NCBI RefSeq assembly: GCF_017908595.1
Contig: NZ_JAGKTL010000002.1
Coordinates: 620,001 to 684,000, forward strand
Direction of reading: 5' to 3'
Origin: Rhodothermus bifroesti
GTDB taxonomy: Bacteria; Bacteroidota; Rhodothermia; Rhodothermales; Rhodothermaceae
Length of the DNA: 64,000 nt
Position numbers and translations under genes: made by a program. Numbering within the stretch: the stretch's first letter is position 1; every line of letters starts with the position of its first letter. The notes under the pieces are model-generated. The model was not told the DNA's origin, did no database searches, and was given only the letters and a program-made list of their open reading frames with translations. This document shows positions 7,186 through 45,691 of the stretch, one piece after another.

Positions 7186-8632
7186 GCAAACACCTTACAC
7201 TATTCTGAGCGGGCTGCTTGTTATGCTGCTAGCTGCAGCTCCCCTCCAAGCCCAAACCTTTTTTACCGCCATACTAACCCCAGACCAAGAAACCAGCAGC
7301 GTGACCAGTGGTGGCCGTGGTACAGCCGCTATGGCCCTAACCGAAGAGGGATTGCAGTTCATTGTAACCGTTGATGGGTTAACTGGACCAATCCAAGCAG
7401 CACACTTTCATCGGGCACCTGCTGGGCAAGACGGTCCCGTAGTCCGTGCCATCCCGTTCGAAGGCAGTACGGCCCAGGGCGTTTGGCGCCCTACCGATGC
7501 ACAGCCGCTCACAGACGAACTGATCCAAGCCTTGCTGGCCGGGGAGCTCTATGTCAATGTACACACCGCTCAGTACCCGGCCGGAGAAATCCGCGGCCAG
7601 ATTCGCTTAGCCAGCGGTACAGCCCTTAGGGCAAGGCTAACCCCTAGCCAAGAAAGCCATGATGTAATGAGTAATGGTTATGGCGTTGCTGAGCTGACGT
7701 TTACCCCAGCAGGATTGGTCTACCACATTACGGTTGTCGATCTAAGCGGTCCGGTTCAGGCAGCGCACTTTCATTATGGTGCAGCAGGGGTCGACGGCCC
7801 TGTGGTACATCCCATTAGCTTTAGCGGGAACCAGGCTTCCGGCGTTTGGACCAATCTTCCAGACTCACTCATTGTGGCCCTGCTTACAGGCCACCTATAC
7901 CTAAACGTACATACGACCCAGTACCCAGCCGGAGAAATCCGAGGACAAGTAGAGCTAGCCGAAGGTATAAGCGCAGCTGTTTTGTTAGATCCTTCCCAAG
8001 AGACCAGTAGCGTCACAAGTAGTGGCCGCGGCACAGCATTCTTAACCTTGACTGAAGCTGGACTGGTGTATCACATTACGGTAAGCGACCTTACAGGACC
8101 CGTGCAGGCAGCACACTTTCATCGGGCACCTGCTGGGCAAGACGGTCCCGTAGTCCGTGCCATCCCGTTCGAAGGCAGTACGGCCCAGGGCGTTTGGCGC
8201 CCTACCGATGCACAGCCGCTCACAGACGAACTGATCCAAGCTTTGCTGGCCGGGGAGCTCTATGTCAATGTACACACCGCTCAGTACCCGGCCGGAGAAA
8301 TCCGCGGCCAGATTCGTCCACGTCAGCTTGTACTTACATCCATCGAACCCGTTGAGGGCACTCCCCCTACTCTCTTAGAGCTGCACCCGAACTATCCGAA
8401 TCCGTTTCGGGAAAAAACAACGATCACCTTTGAACTCCCGCAAACGATGCCTGCCACGCTGGCCATCTATAACCTACTGGGTCAACGCATAGTAACTTTG
8501 GTTGATGGCCAGCTTCCAGCCGGACGCTACGAAGTGGTTTTTGAAGCCTCCACACTGCCAGCTGGACTATACCAGTATCGCTTGGAAACACCTCAGGGCA
8601 TTCAAAGCCGTACGCTTATGCACTTGCGCTAA
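7184..8632 (+). CDS. Secreted protein with three CHRD domains and a T9SS-type C-terminal tail
   Basis: A 482-residue exported protein. A signal peptide (about residues 1-23, ending LQAQ) is followed by three CHRD repeats (about 25-142, 150-262 and 266-382). Each carries the CHRD hallmarks AAHFH, DGPVV and the closing LYLNVHTxxYPAGEIRGQ. CHRD is the domain of chordin, and in bacteria it occurs in secreted proteins of unknown function. The last 80 residues (NYPNPFREKTTI, IYNLLGQ, LPAGLYQYRL) form a FlgD-like/type IX secretion sorting domain, so it is probably delivered to the cell surface. Repeats 1 and 3 share an almost identical DNA block, listed separately. A strong terminator follows 18 bp after the stop. 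Confidence 0.9.
   Translation: MQTPYTILSGLLVMLLAAAPLQAQTFFTAILTPDQETSSVTSGGRGTAAMALTEEGLQFIVTVDGLTGPIQAAHFHRAPAGQDGPVVRAIPFEGSTAQGVWRPTDAQPLTDELIQALLAGELYVNVHTAQYPAGEIRGQIRLASGTALRARLTPSQESHDVMSNGYGVAELTFTPAGLVYHITVVDLSGPVQAAHFHYGAAGVDGPVVHPISFSGNQASGVWTNLPDSLIVALLTGHLYLNVHTTQYPAGEIRGQVELAEGISAAVLLDPSQETSSVTSSGRGTAFLTLTEAGLVYHITVSDLTGPVQAAHFHRAPAGQDGPVVRAIPFEGSTAQGVWRPTDAQPLTDELIQALLAGELYVNVHTAQYPAGEIRGQIRPRQLVLTSIEPVEGTPPTLLELHPNYPNPFREKTTITFELPQTMPATLAIYNLLGQRIVTLVDGQLPAGRYEVVFEASTLPAGLYQYRLETPQGIQSRTLMHLR
7397..7605 (+). repeat. 209-bp near-identical direct repeat, copy 1 (CHRD repeat 1)
   Basis: This block recurs at 8108-8316 with an offset of 711 bp. By eye the only difference is a silent C/T change at 7531/8242. 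The intervening CHRD repeat 2 is clearly diverged at the DNA level although it encodes the same fold. Confidence 0.9.
8108..8316 (+). repeat. 209-bp near-identical direct repeat, copy 2 (CHRD repeat 3)
   Basis: Second copy of the block at 7397-7605. It covers the middle and end of CHRD repeat 3. Identity stops abruptly on both sides, which points to recent gene conversion or unequal exchange within the gene rather than an old duplication. Confidence 0.9.
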
Positions 8633-8650
8633 GCTGCAGCGCCTACAGCT

Positions 8651-8684
8651 AAAAAAGTGCCCCGCACAGGCGGGGCACTTTTTT
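8651..8684 (+). terminator. Rho-independent terminator after the CHRD gene
   Basis: A perfect stem AAAAAAGTGCCCCGC / GCGGGGCACTTTTTT with a short loop (ACAG) and a run of T residues. The symmetric A and T tracts mean it could also stop transcription from the other strand. Confidence 0.93.
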
Positions 8685-8700
8685 AGCGCTTGCATTTTGT

Positions 8701-8716
8701 TTTAGGTTTTCCTAAA
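8701..8716 (+). promoter_or_regulatory. DtxR/MntR-type operator (TTTAGG-N4-CCTAAA)
   Basis: The perfect inverted repeat TTTAGGTTTTCCTAAA lies 34 bp before the start of the MntR-like regulator gene, beside a TATAG element. DtxR, IdeR and MntR family operators share TTAGG/CCTAA half-sites, so this is very likely the autoregulatory site that also controls the downstream transporter genes, which have no other obvious promoter. Confidence 0.75.
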
Positions 8717-8750
8717 TTATAGTCTGGTTCTAATCATCGGTGCATTAAAA

Positions 8751-9407
8751 ATGCTTACTGAATCTCAAGAGGATTACCTGAAACAGATTCTCCTCTTAGG
8801 CGAAGGGGAGCCGGTATCGACCACGACACTGGCAGAGCGGTTGGGCGTGCGGCCGGCTTCGGTAACCGGTATGCTACAAAAGCTGTCGGCCATGGGTTTG
8901 GTCGAGTATCGGCCTTACCAGGGGGCACGGCTAACAAGTCCGGGTTATCGCATAGCGGTTGAACTCTTGCGTCATCACCGTTTGATTGAAACGTTTTTGG
9001 CTGAGGCTTTAGGGTATGACTGGCACGAAGTGCACGACGAGGCCGAACGTCTGGAGCACGTCATCAGTGAACAGTTGGAGGCGCGCATTGCCGAATGGCT
9101 AGGGCATCCTGAGCGCGATCCCCATGGAGATCCGATTCCGACGCCTGAGCTAACGTTTCCGCCGCTTGAATCGGGGTATCCTCTTGCTGCAGTGCCTGTA
9201 CCCGCAACGGTTCGGATTGTGCGCGTGCGCGCGCAAGACCCCGATGCACTCAACCTACTTGCTCGGTTGGGCTTGCGCCCAGGCGTTGTCTTGCGCTTGA
9301 TCGAGCACACCGCTTCTGGCGTGCGTTTAGCCGTAGGCGAAGAGCGCTTTCTCTTACCCAACGAGCTTGCTGCTGCAATATGGGCCGTAGTAGAAGTTAC
9401 CTCTTAG
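8751..9407 (+). CDS. mntR: MntR/DtxR-family metal-dependent repressor
   Basis: A 218-residue metalloregulator. An N-terminal winged helix (residues 5-65, with VSTTTLAERLGVRPASVTGM) is followed by the dimerisation/metal domain (70-140) and a C-terminal SH3/FeoA-like domain (about 150-215). Its numbering matches Bacillus subtilis MntR closely: Asp8, His76 and the E99-x2-E102-H103 cluster are present, but MntR Glu11 is replaced by Lys. The extra SH3 domain is as in DtxR/IdeR. In the family, metal-loaded protein represses metal uptake genes. Here the next four genes encode a metal ABC importer, and the metal-binding protein gene overlaps this one by 28 bp. Manganese is the likeliest co-repressor, but iron or zinc cannot be excluded from sequence. 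Confidence 0.88.
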   Translation: MLTESQEDYLKQILLLGEGEPVSTTTLAERLGVRPASVTGMLQKLSAMGLVEYRPYQGARLTSPGYRIAVELLRHHRLIETFLAEALGYDWHEVHDEAERLEHVISEQLEARIAEWLGHPERDPHGDPIPTPELTFPPLESGYPLAAVPVPATVRIVRVRAQDPDALNLLARLGLRPGVVLRLIEHTASGVRLAVGEERFLLPNELAAAIWAVVEVTS

Positions 9408-44177: not shown

Positions 44178-45386
44178 ATGCAGTTCAACTATGGCGTGCT
44201 GCTCGGAGCGCTAATGCCTTGGATGGTTTGGGCACAGCCCAATGCCTGGATCAACGAGTTCCATTATGACAACGTAGGTGCCGATGCCGACGAATTTATT
44301 GAAGTCGTGCTAGAAAACGCGGCAGCTTACGCGCTTAGCGACTTTGCAGTGGTGCTCTACAACGGCAGCGGTGGCACCTCGTATGGCACTCATCGCCTTG
44401 ACACCTTTACGGAAGGCGCTACTGAAGGAGCTTACACGGTGTATTTCAAGTACATCCCAGGCCTTCAAAATGGTGCTCCCGATGGACTGGCCCTTTGCTA
44501 TCAGGGACACCTGCTCCAGTTTTTAAGCTATGAAGGCACGCTCACTGCTGTCGGCGGCTGCGCCGATGGCATACTTTCAACCGATATTGGCGTTGCAGAG
44601 GACGGCACAACGCCTGCTGGATATTCGCTGCAGCTGACAGGCTTGGGCGCGCGCTATGCCGACTTTTCGTGGGCGTCTCCCCAGCCAGCATCCCCAGGAG
44701 CAATCAATACTACCCAACGGCTCATAGGCCAGGTTACCTGCAGGTTAGCTCTACTGGGTACCTTAGAAGTACTTAGCGCAGCCCAGGGGCGAGCCCAAAT
44801 TCTAGGAACCGATGGTATTCAGCGTGTTCAGAACAGTCCAGTGCAGCCCAATGTCAACTTGCAGCTTATTTCGGTAACTGGACCGGGCGGCGGCGCGGTC
44901 TTTTCGGAGACAGCACCTGGCGTTTGGGAATTTACTGGAAGTGGAAGTCCGCCTACCGAAGCGTATGCTGTTTATCAGCGCTTAGACCTTCAAAGTCCAC
45001 ACAACCAGTTTTTCCTCCAGGTATCGACGCTCTGCCCCTCAGAACCGGACGGCACCCTCGAGGCGCACCTAGATCCTTTTTTTGCCTTTGAACTTCTCCC
45101 CCAGCCTGCTCTACAGGTTACCCCTAATCCTTTCCGCACGCAAACCGTGCTAACCCTGAGTCTTCCTGAAGCAGCCTTGGTCACGGTGGCGATTTACGAT
45201 CTATTGGGACGCCACGTAGCAACGCTGGCTCACGAGAGTCTAGCCGCAGGTCGGCACCAGCTGGTTTGGAATGGCACGTCTATGGGCCATGTCCTTCCCG
45301 CCGGCCTTTACCTCGTCCGCACCGAAGTGCAGCCTCCGGGCCGAGCACCTCAGGTGCACACGCACCGGTTATATCGCCTTCCCTAA
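44178..45386 (+). CDS. Secreted lamin-tail-like domain protein with T9SS-type sorting tail
   Basis: A 402-residue exported protein. A signal peptide (about 1-19, ending WAQ) is followed by a segment typical of bacterial lamin-tail domains: AWINEFHYDNVGADADEFIE, then DFAVVLYNGSGG and, at its end, GYSLQLTG with SPGAIN. The middle (about 185-310) has four cysteines and no clear domain. The C-terminal about 85 residues (VTPNPFRTQTVLTLSL, IYDLLGRHVATL, LPAGLYLVR) are a FlgD-like/T9SS sorting domain, so surface display or release is likely. Lamin-tail domains often accompany secreted nucleases, but no nuclease domain is present. The lasso-leader peptide gene starts 23 bp after its stop, with no terminator between. 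Confidence 0.85.
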   Translation: MQFNYGVLLGALMPWMVWAQPNAWINEFHYDNVGADADEFIEVVLENAAAYALSDFAVVLYNGSGGTSYGTHRLDTFTEGATEGAYTVYFKYIPGLQNGAPDGLALCYQGHLLQFLSYEGTLTAVGGCADGILSTDIGVAEDGTTPAGYSLQLTGLGARYADFSWASPQPASPGAINTTQRLIGQVTCRLALLGTLEVLSAAQGRAQILGTDGIQRVQNSPVQPNVNLQLISVTGPGGGAVFSETAPGVWEFTGSGSPPTEAYAVYQRLDLQSPHNQFFLQVSTLCPSEPDGTLEAHLDPFFAFELLPQPALQVTPNPFRTQTVLTLSLPEAALVTVAIYDLLGRHVATLAHESLAAGRHQLVWNGTSMGHVLPAGLYLVRTEVQPPGRAPQVHTHRLYRLP

Positions 45387-45409: not shown

Positions 45410-45619
45410 ATGGATGCTATGCAAACAGCCCAAACGTTCGGATCCACCAAGAATACGCCTCTCCTTGCAGCACCCCCACATGCCATGCAGACAGTTCAGA
45501 CGTCCCTTTTGGAAATGCCGACACCGGCACCTAACACGCGTCGCCCTTACCGTTCGCCTCGACTGCAATGCCTTGGACGGCTCACAGTGTGCACAAGCGG
45601 CAGTTTTGATTTTTCCTAA
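45410..45619 (+). CDS. Small peptide with lasso-RiPP leader motif and very short core
   Basis: A 69-residue peptide beginning at ATG 45410. Residues 47-64 fit the lasso-peptide leader consensus Y-x2-P-x-L-x3-G-x5-T-x-G exactly: Tyr47, Pro50, Leu52, Gly56, Thr62, Gly64. In lasso precursors this motif binds the PqqD-like recognition domain, and cleavage follows the residue after the threonine, so the core here would be only GSFDFS. That is too short for a lasso ring, which needs Asp or Glu at core position 7-9. The N-terminal half carries a loose internal duplication (AMQTAQT, AMQTVQT), and an ATG at 45485 could serve as a shorter start. No lasso cyclase, protease or recognition protein lies in the window. 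It is followed by a strong terminator. Confidence 0.6.
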   Translation: MDAMQTAQTFGSTKNTPLLAAPPHAMQTVQTSLLEMPTPAPNTRRPYRSPRLQCLGRLTVCTSGSFDFS

Positions 45620-45640: not shown

Positions 45641-45667
45641 AACCCTCCCTTAAGGAGGGTTTTTTTG
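45641..45667 (+). terminator. Rho-independent terminator after the small peptide gene
   Basis: Stem AACCCTCC / GGAGGGTT with a five-base loop, followed by seven T residues. It closes the unit made of the lamin-tail protein and the peptide, and separates it from uvrC, which starts 25 bp later. Confidence 0.92.
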
Positions 45668-45691
45668 TTACTAAGCTGATACCATGGTGCC

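Follow-up and report, generated by a model that had tools for sequence, protein, structure and literature searches.

We describe a short gene in the window (the whole analysed stretch of 64,000 nucleotides, G000:C2:620001-684000, where G000 is the genome of the window, that of a heat-loving Rhodothermus bacterium) whose product, MDAMQTAQTFGSTKNTPLLAAPPHAMQTVQTSLLEMPTPAPNTRRPYRSPRLQCLGRLTVCTSGSFDFS, carries the leader of a lasso peptide precursor in front of a very short core. Judged by how its sequence has changed among relatives, the gene is real, conserved and translated, since close pairs of homologues are under purifying selection (dN/dS 0.05-0.40). We give about an even chance to the reading that the product is a linear RiPP precursor that uses lasso leader recognition without lasso formation and that would be trimmed, phosphorylated in most relatives, and active at the surface.

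A lasso leader in front of a six-residue core

Residues 47-64 of the peptide (YRSPRLQCLGRLTVCTSG) match the consensus Y-x2-P-x-L-x3-G-x5-T-x-G, as the earlier note had claimed for Tyr47 to Gly64, and the leader stands in the exact lasso register, with Tyr at -17, Pro at -14, Leu at -12 and Thr at -2. The sequence GSFDFS comes right after the T-x pair. The six-frame ORFs of the window contain the strict motif a single time, whereas 60 order-2 resamples averaged 0.017 matches and only one of them (1/60) had any. Searches of Pfam and NCBIfam with the peptide gave no match. In particular, lasso_leader_L3 (NF033521, cut-off 19 bits), which has the same leader architecture, did not match it, and the best Rhodothermus homologue scored 17.2 bits, under the cut-off.

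The gene is the second of a two-gene unit (Table 1): 24 bases separate the stop codon of the T9SS gene from the ATG of the peptide gene, and an intrinsic terminator begins 22 bases past the end of the peptide ORF. Both the T9SS-type surface protein upstream and the closing terminator had been described from the sequence before, and both hold. Homologues of the peptide are 45-55 aa long versus 69 aa in the window, and the window peptide has a duplicated MQTxQT block at its N-terminus; because of these two features its true start may be the third Met. The internal duplication spans 45410-45500 (ATGCAAACAGCCCAAACG / ATGCAGACAGTTCAGACG) and makes the window copy longer than its homologues.

Table 1. 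Positions of the features of the two-gene unit, the lasso cluster of G000 and the Big_5 T9SS proteins of other loci.
Feature	Position	Strand	Basis or remarks
T9SS-sorted surface protein (402 aa), gene 1 of the pair	44178..45386	+	TIGR04183, FlgD_ig
Partner module, ~120 aa, ending CPSEPDGTLEAHLDP.F.F	44736..45092	+	alignment A2 search
T9SS type A C-terminal sorting domain	45117..45323	+	TIGR04183; beta-sandwich in model
Short-core lasso-leader peptide gene	45410..45619	+	69 aa; possible alternative start 45485
Leader recognition region, Tyr47 to Ser63 (Y-17, P-14, L-12, T-2)	45548..45598	+	motif in register
Predicted core GSFDFS (pattern GxFxFS)	45599..45616	+	core conservation; predicted cleavage
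Intrinsic terminator closing the two-gene unit	45641..45668	+	8-pair stem 45641-45661, then T-run
Lasso cluster of G000	C2:326965-332970 (L118 4966-10970)		cyclase, kinase-like gene, two WxxP-leader precursors, ABC exporter, RRE
Big_5 T9SS proteins	L036 5963-7444; L112 12020-14035; L113 3933-5936
Big_5 T9SS proteins	L114 about 7602-9032; L158 about 7685-8554; L162 4-756

Conservation in Rhodothermus and in the order

A protein search recovered homologues in five further genomes of the genus, namely G001, G003, G004, G005 and G006. The peptide is thus present in 6 of the 7 Rhodothermus genomes, in 8 copies (G004 and G005 have a second copy each), each directly behind a T9SS-sorted surface protein. 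The DNA pattern G-x-L-x3-T-x-G-x-F-x-F-S-stop gave 8 sites in 6/7 genus genomes and no match in 107 other genomes of the order. All peptide members come from one order, and the genus sample consists of seven genomes, partly MAGs.

The peptide genes of G003 and G006 differ by 11.5 synonymous and 6.5 non-synonymous changes (dN/dS 0.16), and the other close pairs gave 0.40 (G004/G001), 0.22 (G004/G005) and 0.26 (G001/G005), while the last 27 codons of the G037/G083 genes gave 0.05. With a conserved motif and an excess of silent change, neither of the two outcomes that the earlier note had set against its own reading was found; its view of a deliberate gene rather than a random ORF is borne out by the homologues and the purifying selection. 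With purifying selection in six genomes, a truncated relic, another of its suggestions, is not supported as a general explanation.

The sequences after the leader in the eight Rhodothermus copies are GSFDFS, GVFSFS, GVFVFS, GSFNFS (twice), GGFRFS and GGFVFS (twice). They keep the short length and the ending G-x-F-x-F-S in 8/8 copies, while the Asp of the window core is not conserved; in G003 and G006, two adjacent Thr permit a core of 6 or 5 residues. The leader aromatic is Tyr in the window copy only and Phe in all others. In the wider order, four more genomes (G012, G037, G074 and G083) have the T9SS-peptide pair, with peptides that combine F-x-x-P-x-L, a Thr and a Ser at the end, and with tails of about 8-11 residues.

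We compiled 14 peptides, picked by leader motif and gene neighbourhood from the ten genomes with the partner module (see below) and from the kinase loci of G073 and G074. In 13 of the 14, the spacing from the aromatic residue to the Thr was 15 (lasso register -17 to -2); the predicted cores measured 5-11 residues (6 or fewer in Rhodothermus). All 14 end in Ser. This invariant C-terminal Ser, overlooked in the earlier note, is probably the feature that matters most. No Asp or Glu was present at core positions 7-9 in any of the 14 (0/14), so no lasso can form, in line with the earlier statement that the core is unable to close a macrolactam ring.

Two small peptides near kinase loci (G016, G026) are not Ser-ended. 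Small aromatic-xxP peptides near kinase loci at L158 7309-7470 (ending ..SICLWTKC) and L166 10799-11017 (ending ..STLCAYTP) have no terminal Ser and possibly represent a different core type. Other short motif matches around kinase loci were discarded, being mostly reverse-strand noise.

The T9SS partner protein

The protein encoded upstream of the peptide carries the type A sorting domain of T9SS proteins (TIGR04183, residues 314-382, 27.6 bits against a cut-off of 23) and matches FlgD_ig above the cut-off (30.2 bits). Immediately N-terminal to the sorting domain sits the partner module. The window protein is a short form (402 vs ~870 aa), its relatives having an additional beta-helix part. 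In the structure model of the partner, which is of low confidence (mean pLDDT 56), the partner module and the sorting domain are beta-sandwiches, and the fold matches were unspecific except for PorU, which was one of them.

The same T9SS gene precedes the peptide in all relatives that have the pair. The alignment A2 search found the partner module in 6/7 genus genomes, exactly the six with the peptide, and the seventh, G002, has neither peptide nor module. The same search run on genome contigs matched only Rhodothermus MAGs. In the wider order the module was found in four more genomes (G012, G037, G074 and G083), each time with a small peptide encoded directly behind. What follows the pair varies from locus to locus, with uvrC in the window and a phosphoglycerate-mutase-like gene in both G003 and G006, which argues that the T9SS gene and the peptide gene travel as a pair.

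The module also caps amylase-like T9SS proteins in G001 and G006 (L103, L104, L124), behind which no recognisable peptide was found; a methyltransferase-like gene follows instead. These two amylase module copies without a peptide rule out that the peptide is the exclusive companion of the module. Proteins of a second T9SS family, which has a Big_5 domain, are often encoded next to the peptide or the kinase/RRE genes (Table 1).

In the Salinibacter-like genome G037, the T9SS-peptide pair lies inside a lasso gene cluster. The cluster comprises an ABC exporter, RRE, cyclase, lasso precursor, HPr-kinase-like gene, B2 and OmpA-like protein, then the T9SS protein, the peptide, a second T9SS protein, a second kinase and a second RRE; the latter kinase and RRE are those closest to the Rhodothermus locus-1 genes described below. 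G083 has the same neighbours, and in G001 and G004 the pair is found ~2.3 kb from the lasso cluster.

A T9SS protein as partner points to a role of the peptide at the cell surface. The pairing would also fit a reading in which the peptide serves the T9SS protein as an accessory (an anchor, chaperone or regulator); its leader motif would then bind the RRE to regulate or localise, and the chain would never be cleaved or modified. The tightest and most constant association of the peptide is indeed with the T9SS protein and not with the enzymes, and the C-terminal F-x-F resembles a beta-strand edge. However, the Thr at -2, which is important for B2 cleavage, is retained at the exact spacing, and in Salinibacter-like genomes the pair lies together with B2, kinase and RRE genes. 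We regard an unprocessed accessory as unlikely.

B2 protease and RRE

The PqqD-like recognition protein, McjB-type protease and cyclase that the earlier note had proposed to look for are all encoded in G000. Its description of the peptide as an orphan thus holds locally, and fails genome-wide, as the RRE, B2 and cyclase are encoded elsewhere in the genome and the pair lies within a lasso cluster in G037. In G000, the B2 gene and a PqqD-type B1 (RRE) gene adjoin at about C2:166847-167791, ~498 kb from the peptide gene. The B2 protein scored 56.6 bits with NF033537 (cut-off 33) and has the catalytic Cys and His motifs. One B2 copy over the NF033537 cut-off, with a PqqD-type B1 beside it, is present in each of the seven genus genomes, and in none of the Rhodothermus genomes is the T9SS-peptide pair contiguous with B1/B2. 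G002 keeps B1 and B2 although it is without the peptide; hence these two are not exclusive to the peptide, and the separate lasso cluster probably relies on the same single-copy B2.

RRE sequences are short and yield weak trees. In a small tree of them, the Rhodothermus locus-1 RREs grouped with kinase-linked RREs of the order, and the lasso-cluster RREs fell with paeninodin PbaB1, apart from the locus-1 RREs (moderate support in both cases). LppB was placed away from the locus-1 RREs in a small FastTree, with low support. In Rhodothermus, the lasso precursors have WxxP leaders and the short peptides F/YxxP leaders. The Bacillota W-versus-Y leader code, applied to the two Rhodothermus RREs, was rejected: at the position aligned with LppB Asp70, the locus-1 RRE has Gln and the lasso-cluster RRE has Asp, opposite to the expectation.

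HPr-kinase-like genes

Five genomes (G001, G003, G004, G005 and G006) have an HPr-kinase-like gene between B2 and B1, in a block without cyclase. This locus-1 kinase carries the His, GxxGxGKS and DD signature that has been reported for lasso precursor kinases (PMC10368454). Paeninodin-type kinases recognise a C-terminal Ser largely irrespective of the length and sequence of the substrate (PMC8498205). In a survey of 113 genomes of the order, with kinases called at E < 1e-25, a kinase was found in 9 out of 10 genomes with the peptide-linked module versus 8 of 103 others (Fisher p 4e-8, a test that ignores kinship). In addition, G073 and G074 encode a short Ser-ended peptide directly downstream of the kinase.

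The locus-1 kinase is absent from the B2-B1 locus in G000 and G002, and that of G006 (L063 / G006:C63:462-1469) has one in-frame TAA, either a pseudogene or an assembly error. A second, more distant kinase-like gene of G000 is found in its lasso cluster, at G000:C2:326965-327915. Given the two genomes without a locus-1 kinase and the in-frame stop in G006, phosphorylation would not be universal unless this second kinase serves. It is the weakest step of the proposal in the window's own genome, where only the distant lasso-cluster kinase is left.

The missing kinase bears on a further reading, in which relatives have a working system and the window's own copy is a remnant in decay. The shortened T9SS partner (402 vs about 870 aa) and the duplicated N-terminus of the peptide point the same way. 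Against this, the frame, the motif, the terminal GSFDFS and the terminator are all intact in the window copy, and silent change still exceeds amino-acid change per site in the comparison with G003 (15.5 synonymous changes on 21 sites, 17.5 non-synonymous on 57 sites). A local remnant is, on this evidence, quite unlikely.

The lasso cyclase

The lasso cyclase of G000 scored 708 bits with NF033535. The presence of such an enzyme in the same genome could make the peptide a substrate of the cyclase, or of another modifier, that would install a head-to-tail ring or other crosslink. Yet no member has Asp or Glu at 7-9, a threaded ring would need a longer core, WxxP-leader precursors are encoded in the cyclase cluster itself, and the B2-kinase-B1 block is without cyclase; we consider this outcome very improbable. 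A true lasso peptide is ruled out, by the lack of an acceptor residue at 7-9 and by the length of the core. Last, a chance ORF that happens to fit the lasso consensus, as a short frame without Pfam or NCBIfam match might suggest, has a negligible probability and is refuted by conservation and dN/dS, together with the operon pairing and the improbability of the motif.

The precursors of the Rhodothermus lasso cluster (G000, with relatives in L053-L056) have unusual cores of two kinds, one Gly/Trp/Pro-rich and ending in LSGL or similar, the other GSCWYGKQGGQYDADLGPGTLSDCR-like with two Cys. Several of these precursors are without Asp/Glu at 7-9 despite a strong lasso cyclase.

A proposed route to a linear peptide

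For the linear RiPP precursor, we infer the following route. The discrete PqqD-type RRE (B1) would bind the F/YxxPxL leader, and the B2 cysteine protease would cut after Thr-x, releasing a 6-residue G-x-F-x-F-S in Rhodothermus and a peptide of about 8-11 residues in other members of the order. Before cleavage, the invariant C-terminal Ser would in most relatives be phosphorylated by the dedicated HPr-kinase-like enzyme encoded beside B1/B2. The product would then work at the cell surface or close to it, jointly with the T9SS-exported surface protein encoded in its operon. Among the options that the earlier note had offered, the best supported is that the leader serves for some other modification, and nothing was found in favour of a decoy or a signal peptide.

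Comparison with known systems

By mechanism, the Rhodothermus system appears to work most like the LPPs (linear polyphosphorylated peptides) of Bacillota, which are linear phosphopeptides made without a cyclase and with RREs of the lasso type (Popov et al. 2026, PMC13381572). Common to both are an aromatic-xxPx leader, a discrete RRE, an HprK-like kinase, a cyclase-free block and a proposed linear product, and in both cases lasso clusters are often found in the same genome. The kinase-without-cyclase layout of LPPs was seen in five Rhodothermus relatives, while the kinase is absent at the B2-B1 locus of G000. The two systems differ in the protease, an SpI-like peptidase in LPPs and a canonical B2 here (no SpI-like peptidase was noticed in the gene lists around the loci, read without an SpI model). 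The LPP leader is YxxPxVLxHQxIxFETxxS, in contrast to F/YxxPxL here, the window peptide having the YxxPxL part only; the LPP core has 45 residues and is phosphorylated at Ser3, whereas the cores predicted here have 6-11 residues and end in Ser. Finally, LPPs are found near capsule loci in Bacillota, and the present peptides beside a T9SS partner in Rhodothermus and its order.

Phosphorylated lasso peptides of the paeninodin type (PMC8498205) share with our system an HPr-kinase homologue, a C-terminal Ser site and split B1/B2; the paeninodin core is a true lasso served by its own cyclase, whereas no ring is possible in the Rhodothermus peptide. Of the attributes of lasso precursors, the window peptide has the leader with Thr at -2, and the RRE, B2 and cyclase are encoded at other loci of G000. 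We conclude that the window peptide is not a lasso precursor, since the acceptor residue is missing, and does not fit the definition of an LPP either, given its different leader consensus, the canonical B2 and cores under 12 residues. The family seems to be an undescribed branch of the recently found linear-peptide class.

Significance

LPPs and paeninodins have been called restricted to Bacillota (PMC13381572). We tentatively propose, with rather less than even confidence, a cyclase-free class of lasso-leader RiPPs in Rhodothermus and its order, with an evolutionary origin independent of the Bacillota LPPs, that would consist of ultra-short linear peptides with a C-terminal phospho-Ser dedicated to T9SS proteins. 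We know of no lasso-leader products shorter than the proposed hexapeptides. The literature that we searched contained no paper linking lasso peptides or RiPPs to type IX secretion; if the proposal is true, this class would be the first RiPP tied to that system. It would also mean that RRE, B2 and an HPr-type kinase have been reused without a cyclase outside Bacillota, for a product tied to a protein secretion system. We are aware of no biological role established for either LPPs or paeninodins, and the operon with a single T9SS surface protein would offer a testable function for such peptides, in surface attachment or as a signal or ligand.
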